Source: Candidatus Saccharimonadota bacterium (GTDB lineage Bacteria; Patescibacteriota; Saccharimonadia; Saccharimonadales; Saccharimonadaceae). Taken from it: DNA of 64,000 bases. Location: NCBI GenBank assembly GCA_017512175.1, contig JAFWHA010000017.1, positions 1-64,000 of the forward strand. The letters are read 5' to 3'. Position numbers and translations under genes: made by a program. The notes beneath the pieces are model-generated. The model worked only from the letters and a program-made list of their open reading frames with translations, was not told the DNA's origin and searched no databases. Position 1 is the stretch's first letter. Every line of letters starts with the position of its first letter. Below, piece after piece: positions 12,313-60,910 of this stretch.

Positions 12313-12402
12313 GGAAGTGTGGCCGAGTGGTTTAAGGCGCACGCTTGGAAAGCGTGTGTGCGGGAAACCGTACCGGAGGTTCGAATCCTCTCGCTTCCGC
12401 CA
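12313..12402 (+). tRNA. tRNA-Ser(GGA), integration target
   Basis: A full serine tRNA with long variable arm: acceptor GGAAGTG/CGCTTCC, anticodon stem CACGC/GCGTG around loop TTGGAAA (anticodon GGA), T arm GGAGG-TTCGAAT-CCTCT, discriminator G and encoded CCA. From the anticodon arm onward (12343) the sequence is duplicated 7567 bp downstream at 19910, marking this gene as the attachment site of an integrative element. It is the intact copy. Confidence 0.97.
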
Positions 12403-12584
12403 AGTTGAGTAGAGCGACAGAAACACGAAGTGTTTCTAGCAGACTGAAGGAAATAAAAATCGAGAGCTTGCTCTCGTATTTTTATTGACTGAAGGATGCG
12501 TAGAGACGGAGTCTCTGTCGCTTGTGTTTGATTTGGCGGCTCTAAGCACAGAGGATATTGCAATTATCCTCTCGCTTCCGCCAA
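12343..12584 (+). repeat. attL: 242-bp direct repeat of the integrative element
   Basis: This stretch recurs at 19910-20151 at a constant offset of 7567 bp with only a handful of mismatches (five bases right after the tRNA CCA, plus two later single differences). It starts in the anticodon arm of tRNA-Ser(GGA), includes the tRNA 3' half and extends about 180 bp beyond it through a structured tail. Start within the anticodon arm is typical of tyrosine-integrase tRNA sites. The unusually long repeat shows that the element carries not only the tRNA 3' end but the whole tail. Confidence 0.9.
12403..12584 (+). ncRNA. structured tRNA-Ser trailer ending in a second tRNA 3'-end copy
   Basis: After the tRNA CCA come four hairpins: AGAAACAC/GTGTTTCT (12419-12437), CGAGAGC/GCTCTCG within A and T runs (12451-12487, also a plausible terminator), AGAGAC/GTCTCT (12502-12516) and GAGGATA/TATCCTC (12551-12571). 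The last is followed by TCGCTTCCGCCA, so 12566-12583 repeats the tRNA's own final 18 bases exactly 181 bp downstream. A diverged tail with matching hairpins and compensating base changes follows tRNA-Ser(CGA) at 39.5 kb. Whether it is a transcribed RNA or a small mobile element is open. Confidence 0.6.
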
Positions 12585-12620
12585 ATTACCCCTTATAAGG
12601 GAAATAATATGTATAAAAGA

Positions 12621-19835: not shown

Positions 19836-19909
19836 TTCTTGTGTGTACTTTAATGCACTATGTTGTTTGTAATATCTGTTATTAATGAATGCTTACCTGA
19901 GGCAAGCAT

Positions 19910-20151
19910 GCTTGGAAAGCGTGTGTGCGGGAAACCGTACCGGAGGTTCGAATCCTCTCGCTTCCGCCAGGTCCAGTAGAGCGACAGAAACACGAAGTGT
20001 TTCTAGCAGACTGAAGGAAATAAAAATCGAGAGCTTGCTCTCGTATTTTTATTGACTGAAGGATGCGTAGAGACGGAGTCTCTGTCGCTCGTGTTTGATT
20101 TGGCGGCTCTAAGCACCGAGGATATTGCAATTATCCTCTCGCTTCCGCCAA
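19910..20151 (+). repeat. attR: partial tRNA-Ser(GGA) plus trailer copy
   Basis: Copy of 12343-12584 beginning inside the anticodon arm (GCTTGGAAAGCG), so the tRNA 5' half is absent and this copy cannot make a tRNA. The following trailer keeps all four hairpins and the second 3'-end mimic. It is the displaced original chromosomal end of the integration site or the element's right end. Confidence 0.9.
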
Positions 20152-20404
20152 GTTTAATAAACTTAAAGAGCGGTAAAAAGAATCTATTGAAAAGCAAGGT
20201 ATAGCGACTTACGAAAAGCGTAGCACGCACGGCGTGATTAATACGGAATTGATGGATAGAGGTGAAGATGAAGTAGTCGGTGATGAAGTGGAGGATGCGT
20301 ATAGGAAGCTACATGAAAATAGCTAGATTTTTGAAGAATAGAGCGTGTACATTATTTTCTAGCCAAGTACTATTAGAACGTGTACTGTATGCTAGAATAG
20401 CAGT
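20152..20404 (+). other. spacer with a C-terminal gene remnant
   Basis: From about 20170 to 20325 one plus-strand frame reads KESIEKQGIATYEKRSTHGV, then INTELMDRGEDEVVGDEVED and ends AYRKLHENS at a TAG. It has no start or upstream body and looks like the 3' end of a gene cut off at the element boundary. I cannot name the family. A TGNTANNNT-type promoter may lie before the gene at 20405. Confidence 0.4.
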
Positions 20405-29836: not shown

Positions 29837-29930
29837 GACGGAAATTTAGCATAGGAGCTGTGCGGGGAAGCTAAAGTTCTAGGATTAGTTTTGTGTGTTA
29901 TAATAGAGAAAAGGGTAATTGGAGATTTTG

Positions 29931-32663
29931 ATGAAATTTACGACTTCTTATGAGCCAGGGGAATTTGAGCCAGATATTTATGCTGCTTGGGAAGCGGCAG
30001 ATGAGTTTTTGCCTGGTGGCAAAGTAGGAGGAGATGGTAAATTATTCGATGAAGATCCAGACAATAATCCGAAAACTTATTCTATCGTGATGCCACCACC
30101 GAATGCTAATGGCAATCTCCACATTGGACATGGTCTTACTATCGCGATTGAGGATTCCTTGACTAGGTATCATAGACTACGTGGAGAAATGACTTGGTAT
30201 ATACCTGGTGCGGATCATGCAGGATTTGAAACTTGGGTAGTTTACGAGAGGGTGCTCGAGGCTAATAAACATACACGCTTCGAATACTCGCGTGACGAGC
30301 TATATGCACAGGTTTGGGACTTCGTGCAAGAGCAGCGTGGAAATATGGAGCTTCAGGTGCGGGCGCTGGGAGCTTCTTGTTCTTGGAAAGATTTGACTTT
30401 CACATTAGATGAAAACGTAGTGCGCAGAGTCTATGCGACTTTTGAAAAAATGTGGAATGATGGGATGATCTATAGAGGCGAAAAGCTAGTAAACTACTGC
30501 ACTAAGCATCAAACCGCATTCGCAGATATCGAAGTAGAGCACAAAGAAGAAAAAGGTAAACTTTGGGATATTGCTTATCCGTATGATGGTGGCGAAATCG
30601 TAGTATCTACTACCCGTCCAGAGACGCTTTTTGGCGACGTGGCGGTAGCAGTAAACCCGGAAGATACTCGTTATAAAAAAATGATTGGCAAAACTGTGCG
30701 TCTGCCACTAACAGATAGAAATATACCCGTAATCGCAGACGAGCACGCTGATCCTGAATATGGTACTGGCGCAGTAAAAATCACTCCGGCGCACGATAAT
30801 GATGACTTTGAGGTAGGCGAAAGACATAATTTGCCTCGAATTCAGGTAATTGGCTTCGATGGAAAAATGTTACCGATTTGTGGAGAAGAATATGCCGGAC
30901 TTGACACTGCCGAATGTCGCAAAAAAGTCTTGCATGACTTAAAAGAGGCAGGACTTCTACGCGGCGAAAAGAAGATCGTGCACGCAGTAGCGCATTGTTA
31001 TAAATGCGACACAGTAATAGAGCCGATGCTAAAAGAGCAGTGGTTTATTGACGTTAAGAAGCTAGCGAAGATAGCAATAGAACATCTAGAAGCGGGAGAA
31101 ATTGAGTTCTTCCCTGCTTCCAAGAAGCAAGTACTAATCAACTACTTGAAGGGCTTGAAAGATTGGAATATCTCTAGACAGATTCCTTGGGGGATTGCGA
31201 TTCCGATGTTTCGCAAAGTAGACAGCGATGAATGGATTTTTGATTCAAGAACGAATCTATCCGAGATTGAGATTGGTGGCGTGAGATATGTGAGAGATGA
31301 AGATACTTTTGACACTTGGTTTTCTTCTTCTCATTGGCCAATCGTCTGTACTAACTGGGAGGAGGGCGTAGTCAACCCTTATTATCCGCTAAACGTGATG
31401 GAAACAGGTGCGGACATATTGTTTGCTTGGGTGGCACGAATGATTATGATGGGGCTATATGTTACTGGCGAAGTACCGTTCAAGCAAGTGTACCTACATG
31501 GCTTAGTGCTAGATGCGCACGGACAGAAAATGAGTAAGTCTAAGGGGAATGTGATTAACCCGATGGATTTAGTGGCCAAATACGGATCCGATGCGTTTAG
31601 GTTGGGTATTCTGAGAGGTCGTTCTGCTGGCATGAATCAAGCTTTCTCTGAACAATCGGCAGTAGCTGGTCGTAATTTATGCAATAAATTATGGAATGTG
31701 TCAAGGTTTATTCAAGAGATAGTCGATAATGAAGCTTCTGCTCCAGAAGACGCTACAGATGAGCAGACCGTTTCTTCTGGAACGCCTTCGTCCGCGAAAA
31801 GTAAAGGGCTGAAGCCCGTTGACTTTTCGCTGGGACTCCGGGATATTGTTCCAGAAGAAAGGTCCGACTCATCCACTTATACTACTGATAATATGGGTGA
31901 AGATTGGATATGCAGAGAAATCAACGAAGCTAGGTGGCAAGTTGAAAAGCAGATGAAAAACTATCGTTTTTCCGAAGCGGTGGAGACATTACATAGCTTA
32001 ATCTGGGATAAATACGCAGACTGGTTCATTGAGAGCCAAAAGCTTTACAAGAATACTGGTCTACTAATGACGACACTTGAGGCAATTTTAAAAATGCTAC
32101 ATCCTTTTGCGCCGTTCGTGACGGAAGCGATTTGGCAGAATCTATCTTGGACTGATGGGCTTTTAATTTCTGCAAATTGGCCGTCTGACTTTAAATTTGA
32201 CCCTATGAGCGCTGAAGAATTTGAAAAGCTTATGAATATCGTATCCCACACTAGAAGCACCTTACAGGGCCTCTCAGAAGCTTACAAAGGCTTTTCTCGT
32301 GCGGATACTACCCTACTTTATGGCGACGATACACTTATTGATGACAATTCCCTTCTAGTGCAATATCTAACCCGCGTGAAATCTGTGATCTCTGCTGAAG
32401 GCGAGCCAAGAGGACTAAGACTAGCGGTGGCAAATAGTGAAGTCTACTTAGATGTTTCTTCTGAAGTAGTTTCCGCCTATGCCGATAGTTTGGAGAAAAA
32501 GATTCTGAAAGTTGGTGCAGAACTGGATAGCCTAAATATGCGAATGATGAATCCGAATTATGTTGACAAAGCTCCAGCGGAGTTGGTTAAAGAGACTCAA
32601 GATTTAATCGCAGAGAAACAAGGGTTAATCGAGCGTTTGAAGGCTGAAAGGGCGGCGATTTAA
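29931..32663 (+). CDS. valS: valyl-tRNA synthetase with an in-frame hairpin-element insertion
   Basis: Class I synthetase of 910 aa: PPPNANGNLHIGHGL (HIGH) near 40, the editing domain with STTRPETLFGDVAVAVNP, and KMSKSKGNVINP near 530. An ATG at 29931 follows GGAG at good spacing; an upstream TTG would add four residues. Around residues 614-643 a 30-codon insertion (31771-31860) forms a nested hairpin and encodes AKSKGLKPVDFSLGLRDIV; the same element occurs between genes at 60.8 kb. The insertion lies between the catalytic and anticodon-binding domains, in a linker that seems to tolerate it. The C-terminal helix pair is the usual ValS coiled coil. Confidence 0.96.
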   Translation: MKFTTSYEPGEFEPDIYAAWEAADEFLPGGKVGGDGKLFDEDPDNNPKTYSIVMPPPNANGNLHIGHGLTIAIEDSLTRYHRLRGEMTWYIPGADHAGFETWVVYERVLEANKHTRFEYSRDELYAQVWDFVQEQRGNMELQVRALGASCSWKDLTFTLDENVVRRVYATFEKMWNDGMIYRGEKLVNYCTKHQTAFADIEVEHKEEKGKLWDIAYPYDGGEIVVSTTRPETLFGDVAVAVNPEDTRYKKMIGKTVRLPLTDRNIPVIADEHADPEYGTGAVKITPAHDNDDFEVGERHNLPRIQVIGFDGKMLPICGEEYAGLDTAECRKKVLHDLKEAGLLRGEKKIVHAVAHCYKCDTVIEPMLKEQWFIDVKKLAKIAIEHLEAGEIEFFPASKKQVLINYLKGLKDWNISRQIPWGIAIPMFRKVDSDEWIFDSRTNLSEIEIGGVRYVRDEDTFDTWFSSSHWPIVCTNWEEGVVNPYYPLNVMETGADILFAWVARMIMMGLYVTGEVPFKQVYLHGLVLDAHGQKMSKSKGNVINPMDLVAKYGSDAFRLGILRGRSAGMNQAFSEQSAVAGRNLCNKLWNVSRFIQEIVDNEASAPEDATDEQTVSSGTPSSAKSKGLKPVDFSLGLRDIVPEERSDSSTYTTDNMGEDWICREINEARWQVEKQMKNYRFSEAVETLHSLIWDKYADWFIESQKLYKNTGLLMTTLEAILKMLHPFAPFVTEAIWQNLSWTDGLLISANWPSDFKFDPMSAEEFEKLMNIVSHTRSTLQGLSEAYKGFSRADTTLLYGDDTLIDDNSLLVQYLTRVKSVISAEGEPRGLRLAVANSEVYLDVSSEVVSAYADSLEKKILKVGAELDSLNMRMMNPNYVDKAPAELVKETQDLIAEKQGLIERLKAERAAI
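31771..31860. repeat. hairpin repeat element, copy 1 (inside valS)
   Basis: Outer stem TTTCTTCTGGAAC/GTTCCAGAAGAAA, inner stem GCGAAAAGT/ACTTTTCGC, apical stem GGGCT/AGCCC. The 64-65 nt between the outer arms match the copy at 60820-60882 position by position: GCCTTCG, AAAAGTAAA, GTTGACTTTT and CGGGATATTG are identical and the stem bases change in pairs. Length 90 bp, a multiple of three, so valS stays in frame. Confidence 0.8.
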
Positions 32664-38698: not shown

Positions 38699-39507
38699 AC
38701 TGGATAGTAGAAATGTTTTCTTATACATTCATGCAAAGAGCGGTCATAGTTGGAGTTTTGATTTCTGCTTGCGCTGCACTACTGGGTGTGTCTTTAGTGC
38801 TTCGCAAAAATTCAATGATTGGCGATGGTCTTTCACATACGGCTTTTTCTGCTTTCGCCGTCGCATTAGTGTTAGGGCTCACCCCTATTTATTTTGCGAT
38901 ACCAGTAGTGATAATAGCGTCATTTGTAGTTTTACGCCTAAGCAAGAGTCGGAAGTCTAACGGAGATGCAGCAATTGCTCTACTTTCTGCAAGCAGTCTA
39001 GCGATTGGAGTAATGGCGATTTCCGTAGTCAAGGGAGTGAATATTGATCTTAACAGCTATCTTTTCGGGAGTATTCTTTCTGTTGGATGGAGTGATGTTT
39101 GGCTAAGCATAGTTATGACAATTTTAGTTGTAGGCCTTTACGTCTTTGCTCATAACCGCATTTTTGCAATTACATTTGATGAGGAGTTTGCAAAATCTAC
39201 AGGAGTTAGAACTGGTTACTACGATATCATTTTTGCAATTATCTGCTCTGTAGTGATAGTGCTAGGTATGAGATTGCTTGGCGCGTTGCTGATTTCTTCT
39301 CTCATTATTTTTCCGACTATTATTTCTATGCAGTTTTCTAAATCGTTTAAGGTTTTGGTAATTTGGTCAGTAGTTATTTCGATAATTAACTTTATGCTTG
39401 GGCTAATAATTTCTTATTTGGTTGCGACACCAACAGGAGCGACGGTAGTGATTGTAAATTTGATAGTATTATTAGTCACGAAAATAGTGCGTAAGCTGGT
39501 GGCGTGA
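38695..39507 (+). CDS. metal ABC transporter permease
   Basis: A 270-aa ABC-3 family permease with eight to nine helices. Family sequence VLRKNSMIGDGLSHTAFSAF near 35-55 contains the conserved GDGLSH, and RLLGALLISSLIIFPTIIS near 195 is the second signature. It starts within the ATPase stop (4-bp overlap) and ends three bases before the trailer of tRNA-Ser(CGA). Confidence 0.92.
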   Translation: MNWIVEMFSYTFMQRAVIVGVLISACAALLGVSLVLRKNSMIGDGLSHTAFSAFAVALVLGLTPIYFAIPVVIIASFVVLRLSKSRKSNGDAAIALLSASSLAIGVMAISVVKGVNIDLNSYLFGSILSVGWSDVWLSIVMTILVVGLYVFAHNRIFAITFDEEFAKSTGVRTGYYDIIFAIICSVVIVLGMRLLGALLISSLIIFPTIISMQFSKSFKVLVIWSVVISIINFMLGLIISYLVATPTGATVVIVNLIVLLVTKIVRKLVA

Positions 39508-39510
39508 ATT

Positions 39511-39692
39511 TGGCGGAAGCGAGAGGAAAATTACAATATCCTCTGTGCTTAGAGCCGTCAGATTATCATCAGAGCAAAGAGACTCCATCTCTACGCATCC
39601 TTCATCCAATAAAAATATGAGAGCAAGCTCTCATATTTCTTATTTCTTCAATCTGTAGAAAGGCTACGCCTTTCTTTGTTGCTTTCAAAACC
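39511..39692 (-). ncRNA. structured trailer of tRNA-Ser(CGA)
   Basis: Minus-strand tail after the tRNA CCA. Hairpins AGAAAGGC/GCCTTTCT (39657-39675), TGAGAGC/GCTCTCA in A/T runs (terminator-like), AGAGAT/GTCTCT and GAGGATA with a near complement, ending in TCCTCTCGCTTCCGCCA. The 17-base 3'-end copy lies 182 bp from the tRNA's own. Same order and spacing as the trailer of tRNA-Ser(GGA), with paired substitutions in the first two stems. Confidence 0.6.
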
Positions 39693-39782
39693 TGGCGGAA
39701 GCGAGAGGATTCGAACCTCCGAGACGGTCACCCGCCCACACGATTTCGAGTCGTGCGCCTTCAACCACTCGGCCACGCTTCC
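39693..39782 (-). tRNA. tRNA-Ser(CGA)
   Basis: Serine tRNA with acceptor GGAAGCG/CGCTTCC, anticodon stem CACGA/TCGTG around CTCGAAA (anticodon CGA), long variable arm, T arm GGAGG-TTCGAAT-CCTCT and encoded CCA. Convergent with the metal-transport operon. Confidence 0.97.
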
Positions 39783-39826
39783 ATCTGTAATTATATCATA
39801 CCCCTTAAAAAATACGAAGTAATGCG

Positions 39827-60740: not shown

Positions 60741-60772
60741 AAATCCCCCTCGAGACTTCGAGGGGGATTTTT
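60741..60772 (+). terminator. hsp20 terminator
   Basis: AAATCCCCCTCGA-GACT-TCGAGGGGGATTTTT hairpin about 20 bp after the stop. Confidence 0.95.
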
Positions 60773-60791: not shown

Positions 60792-60910
60792 TGCCAGTAA
60801 TACCTAACCTTATAGGACAGCCTTCGCGCGCCAAAAGTAAAGTCCTAAAGGACGTTGACTTTTGGCTGGCGCTACGGGATATTGTCCTATAAGGTTAGGT
60901 ATTACTGGCA
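60792..60910. repeat. hairpin repeat element, copy 2 (intergenic)
   Basis: A 28-bp perfect outer stem (TGCCAGTAATACCTAACCTT... arms 60792-60819 and 60883-60910) encloses the same core as the insertion in valS: GCCTTCG, stem GCCAAAAGT/ACTTTTGGC, apical stem GTCC/GGAC, CGGGATATTG. Read in the valS frame it encodes AKSKVLKDVDFWLALRDIV. The outer arms are unrelated to those in valS, so each copy has its own flanking inverted repeat. No gene is visible in 60773-60985. Confidence 0.8.

Follow-up and report, generated by a model that had tools for sequence, protein, structure and literature searches.

Palindromic elements that sit in frame within protein genes are known chiefly from Rickettsia. The element described here was found in Saccharibacteria, which are tiny symbiotic bacteria. 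Rickettsia palindromic elements (RPEs) are palindromes of ~100-150 bp that come in several families per lineage, insert in frame in protein genes and inhabit reduced genomes (PMC10969869, PMC3733652), and the Saccharibacteria element resembles them in these respects. It also has traits of the REP/RAYT system, namely palindromes conserved in structure, an intergenic bias and some intragenic copies (PMC3733652), and of MITEs, which carry terminal inverted repeats, measure 70-300 bp, are non-coding and occur in multiple copies. Long inverted repeats in coding frames are likewise found in mitochondria of Nematomorpha (PMC6649704), and PARCELs are palindromic DNA coding for peptides (PMC2996958). 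The initial annotation called the element apparently undescribed; in a literature coverage that is incomplete, we found no paper describing palindromic elements in Saccharibacteria.

The window, which is the whole stretch of 64,000 nucleotides that was analysed, contains two copies of the element (Table 1). Copy 1 lies in valS, an uninterrupted 914-aa ORF that was identified by NF004349 (875 bits) and TIGR00422 (801 bits). It separates Pfam domain PF00133 (residues 47-565) from the anticodon-binding domain PF08264 (residues 662-779), in agreement with the earlier placement of a hairpin inside the valS frame between the catalytic part and the anticodon-binding domain. The nested hairpin had been drawn at 31771-31860; its fold stands out from shuffles (z = -7.2), while the palindrome itself is wider: it comprises 116 nt (31758-31873) in frame, and its nested core of 64 nt lies between two 26-nt arms. 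In an alignment with Thermus ValRS (1gax), residues 593 and 630 of the Thermus protein bound the unaligned region into which the insert falls. An AlphaFold model of ValS (two sequences) reached a mean pLDDT of 34 and was not used.

Copy 2 (60792-60910) is intergenic, between convergent genes. Across 74 nt, the cores of the two copies share 79.7% identity (E 4.8e-11), and the chance expectation of the shared core pattern in the window is 0.00. The match at 60.8 kb reported by the initial annotation thus holds, and direct reading of the sequence bears out both the paired differences of stem bases (GCG/CGC versus GCC/GGC; GGGCT/AGCCC versus GTCC/GGAC) and the translation of both copies, in the same frame, to AKSKxLKxVDFxLxLRDIV. 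Their common fold consists of the outer arms, a GCC/GGG stem, an inner stem, an AAA/GTTG internal loop and a GNNC-TNAA-GNNC tip. No further convincing copies were found in the source genome, which is 72% complete.

Table 1 Features of the two element copies in the window, and loci of other palindrome families.
Feature	Position	Strand	Description
valS (valyl-tRNA synthetase)	29919..32663	+	Host gene of copy 1; uninterrupted 914-aa frame
Copy 1 left arm, 26 nt	31758..31783	+	Inverted repeat, 81% complementary; arm length 26 in family statistics
Copy 1 conserved core	31784..31847	+	Fold; covariance model R1 92.7 bits, E 3.9e-19
Copy 1 core GCC	31784-31786	+	GCC/GGG stem with GGG 31840-31842; fold
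Copy 1 core inner stem	31790-31802 with 31822-31836	+	Fold
Copy 1 core apical GGGC-TGAA-GCCC	31806-31817	+	Fold
Copy 1 core internal loop AAA/GTTG	within 31784..31847	+	Fold
Copy 1 right arm, 26 nt	31848..31873	+	Inverted repeat
Terminator-like hairpin of Hsp20-like gene	60741..60770	+	Copy 2 lies just downstream of the hairpin
Copy 2 left arm, 28 nt, perfect	60792..60819	+	Inverted repeat, 100% complementary
Copy 2 conserved core	60820..60882	+	R1 105.3 bits, E 3.4e-22; fold z -13.8 versus shuffles
Copy 2 right arm	60883..60910	+	Inverted repeat
Other-family loci	L031-L059, L197-L210 (ValS); L043, L201, L202, L208; L163; L101		Linker, editing loop, N-terminus, UvrB, RlmD-like

The covariance model R1 was built from 12 copies, and a covariance model search of 174 genomes of the genus gave ~80 copies in 15 genomes, the carriers being incomplete MAGs. 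Copy numbers were 16-17 in genome G116, ~25 or more in G134, ~12 in G181, ~9 in G180 and three each in G111 and G036, with single copies elsewhere. The family is patchy among related species, and most species of the genus are without copies. An order-wide covariance search (295 genomes, 143 genera) returned matches in this genus only. Scanning 84,980 species genomes (one genome per GTDB r220 species) for the exact core pattern added 10 true copies, every one from a Candidatus Saccharibacteria MAG of gut or rumen origin and five from a single genome; matches in Stahlbacteria, Companilactobacillus, Dehalococcoidia and viral contigs differ in fold and were rejected. Both-side changes affect 29 of the 42 pairs; they number 104 cells, where shuffles give 35.3, and the covariation score was 0.532 compared with at most 0.209 when partners were slid. 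The core does, then, occur elsewhere with strong covariation, which the initial annotation had named as a check.

Six weak model matches (L185-L190, E 1e-7 to 1e-5) were set aside as long hairpins beside tRNA genes that do not belong to the family of the valS copy. These hairpins lie directly 3' of the tRNA genes, and in those of the L185/L186 type the outer stem pairs with the tRNA's own 3' half, for example in tRNA-Asp and tRNA-Ile. The window has three tRNA-Ser genes (12339-12587, 19906-20154 and 39507-39800), each followed by a conserved stretch of ~180 nt that is 83-97% identical between loci and forms a long hairpin, as folded for the first locus.

The second check, absence of the segment from some ValS relatives, was borne out as well. 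The insertion is absent in G032, G033 and G111; G032, which has the closest ValS, reads VDNEPSTVAATNDNMGEDW at the insertion place, its linker being 42-43 residues shorter and the flanks 80-82% identical in nucleotides. At the Hsp20 site G032 has a terminator-like hairpin and no element. One G116 copy fills a gap of 146 nt, where most relatives have ~25-60 nt, and an 'empty' site in G057 resembles the remnant of a lost element. The intergenic site at 4425-4577 of L121 holds palindromes of at least three families in different species (L213, L214, L216, L217, L239).

The family is multi-copy and patchy, and some of its sites are empty in relatives; copies favour neither strand and show no target-site duplication, their arms end sharply, and arms and inner stem carry paired changes. 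In our reading it is mobile but non-autonomous, a short palindromic element of the RPE/REP kind whose observed range is a single genus of Saccharibacteria; we put the probability of this reading at roughly 0.7. That the element moves as a folded single strand is a more tentative proposal, to which we give somewhat under an even chance. Recognition would act on the core in a folded, single-stranded form, either ssDNA or RNA, and an enzyme acting in trans would copy the element to new sites; after insertion, template switching between the arms would re-match mutated arms and could flip the core. The valS copy probably persisted since an insert of this length leaves the frame intact and additional residues are tolerated in the linker that joins the two ValS domains. 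No autonomous partner was found, and the 3' halves that were checked lie in ordinary or damaged copies. The Y1 transposase PF01797 is present in eight of 170 genomes, none of them multi-copy, the MAGs being incomplete; reverse transcriptase, found in 92 of 166 genomes and absent from G036, does not track copy number. With no association with copies, both were rejected as movers.

The element unit measures ~116 nt (~141 nt in one genome) and consists of two 26-nt arms, whose sequence is nearly unconstrained, and a core of 63-66 nt, or ~90 nt in G134 (64 nt in G116), with loop residues conserved on one strand. Next to the core the arms pair at 0.9-1.0; pairing is still 0.55 at position 26 but drops to the background value of 0.34 at position 27, which gives the element a defined end. 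In G116, arm positions 20-26 match the opposite arm at 0.95 in cis and at 0.52 between copies (shuffled 0.47), and cores are 0.83 identical between copies. In G180 and G181, full 26-nt arms recur at different sites. Arms thus move along with the element, and their outer part can vary if pairing is kept. Such copy-specific distal arms are only partly explained. An inverted duplication of the target site was considered as their source and is not supported, since the empty site in G187 lacks the distal arm.

Template switching is known to cause arm homogenisation and spacer inversion (PMC8604942, PMC8794818). In orthologous copies of G103 and G191 (L180:3999-4106 and L181:3997-4104) the core is inverted, being 64/66 identical in inverted orientation versus 43/66 directly; an inversion of this kind is a recognised mark of template switching. 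Since the process can itself produce paired changes, arm covariation alone is no proof of a selected RNA, and paired changes in such arms need not signify a functional RNA.

One alternative would be that arms stay at the site and the core is the mobile unit: existing hairpins would exchange cores through gene conversion, or cores would home into the loops of hairpins. At one orthologous site of G180 and G181 (L145:3005-3110 and L139:2997-3100) the arms are 24/26 identical on each side, but the cores only 48/65, each core being nearer to copies of its own genome (61/65 and 59/61). Cores are also typical of their genome, as their lengths in G134 and G116 show, whereas distal arms are copy-specific, and one in-frame palindrome (L197) has a second one in its apical loop. 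However, the recurrence of whole arms at different G180/G181 sites means that arms travel too, arms at the ValS site are no more similar across core families than they are to arms from other sites (6.9 versus 6.9), so that resident ValS arms common to different core families were rejected, and new sites would require a source of arms. We consider exchange of cores alone unlikely. A modular system, in which structure-recognised core cassettes would be exchanged between arms matched by template switching, and several core families unrelated to one another would land in frame, again and again, in essential genes, ValS above all, is likewise a doubtful proposition.

Within the family, only the valS copy, one of 75, lies fully inside a gene, defined as an ORF that spans the copy and extends 30 codons or more beyond it at each end; by simple ORF calling the remainder are intergenic, in gaps that are tandem (40), divergent (17) or convergent (13). 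Of the 40 tandem cases, 18 share the strand of the genes and 22 are opposite, which amounts to no strand bias. A functional structured RNA, or a regulatory or terminator hairpin fixed at intergenic places, would fit the loop residues conserved on one strand, the G-U pairs, the strong fold and the persistence of some orthologous copies between species. This explanation is nevertheless improbable given the indifference to the strand of neighbours, the spread over all three types of gap and a coding frame, and the absence from most species of the genus; Rfam 15 at gathering thresholds, moreover, gave no match except tRNAs.

A classical MITE, mobilised by a DDE transposase through recognition of its terminal inverted repeats, is improbable too. 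Terminal inverted repeats of 26 nt with a sharp end, a length of 110-145 nt, the lack of coding capacity and the intergenic bias would all suit it. However, no target-site duplication was detected (cis 1.92 versus trans 1.75), no autonomous copy was seen among the 3' halves checked, and the terminal sequence differs between copies with conservation internal, although a DDE transposase needs a defined end. An ordinary ValS protein insertion with an incidental DNA palindrome, for which the hypervariable linker of the genus might speak, is refuted by the same structure in ~75 non-coding copies, by the z of -7.2 and by the absence of the segment from relatives.

Of 71 copies, 46 keep the +0 frame open across the core, compared with ~22% per frame by chance. 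A conserved peptide as the purpose of the element was rejected, as the whole element is open in only 16 copies and is not a conserved coding domain. Peptides from AKSKGLKPVDFSLGLRDIV, if detected in a carrier, would prove translation.

The initial annotation had proposed an RPE-like palindromic element able to enter coding genes. The RPE-analogous interpretation is supported, and its mode of movement is what we infer; the ability to enter coding genes rests, for this family, on a single copy, because the family is almost wholly intergenic. Repeated entry into coding genes is seen in other palindrome families of the same genus. In ~30 of ~50 ValS genes read, a sample weighted to the best protein matches and therefore not random, the linker at the same place is strongly palindromic and in frame (z about -4 to -12), the cores being nearly all of other families. 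ValS ranges from 869 to 1022 aa in the genus. A second hotspot is the loop of the ValS editing domain, with long inserts in ~10 of some 40 genes read, and a third site is the ValS N-terminus (locus L056 of G055). In-frame palindromes also occur in UvrB of G134, where the insert divides the TIGR00631 match (1005 bits), and G208 has one in an RlmD-like gene (TIGR00479, 165.7 bits, below the cut-off). The marker CCCGTNACGACGGG of these other families, many of which have a CGAC-type tip, is carried by 131 of the 170 genomes searched in the genus but is absent from the window's genome; controls gave zero hits. In the ValS linker of G140 (L197), a second palindrome is nested in the apical loop of the in-frame one.

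Compared with the known systems, the Saccharibacteria element is, like RPEs, a short, dispersed and repeated palindrome (~80 copies) with an in-frame insertion absent from relatives (window valS against G032, G033 and G111). It differs in its low share of copies inside genes and in belonging to a different phylum, and it has copy-specific distal arms and core inversion, which may be further differences. Among genomes representing each GTDB r220 species, none from Rickettsia has the exact core pattern, a result compatible with a distant relation. The element is far longer than REPs of 20-40 bp, no GTAG/CGTC-type tag was noticed, and the multi-copy genomes have no Y1 (HUH) gene. It departs from MITEs in its unconserved ends and the missing target-site duplication, and no related IS was found among the 3' halves checked. 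In Nematomorpha both arms encode conserved protein parts, in contrast to an inserted repeated element (PMC6649704), and PARCELs are tandem 25-residue protein repeats rather than single interspersed elements (PMC2996958). The Saccharibacteria element works like RPEs and REPs, a likeness that does not itself show relation by descent. Several families exist in a different phylum with tiny genomes, and ~170 related genomes allow insertion, loss, arm repair and protein tolerance to be compared. The same essential enzyme is struck again and again: unrelated palindromes have hit valS repeatedly in sister species, much as in Rickettsia.
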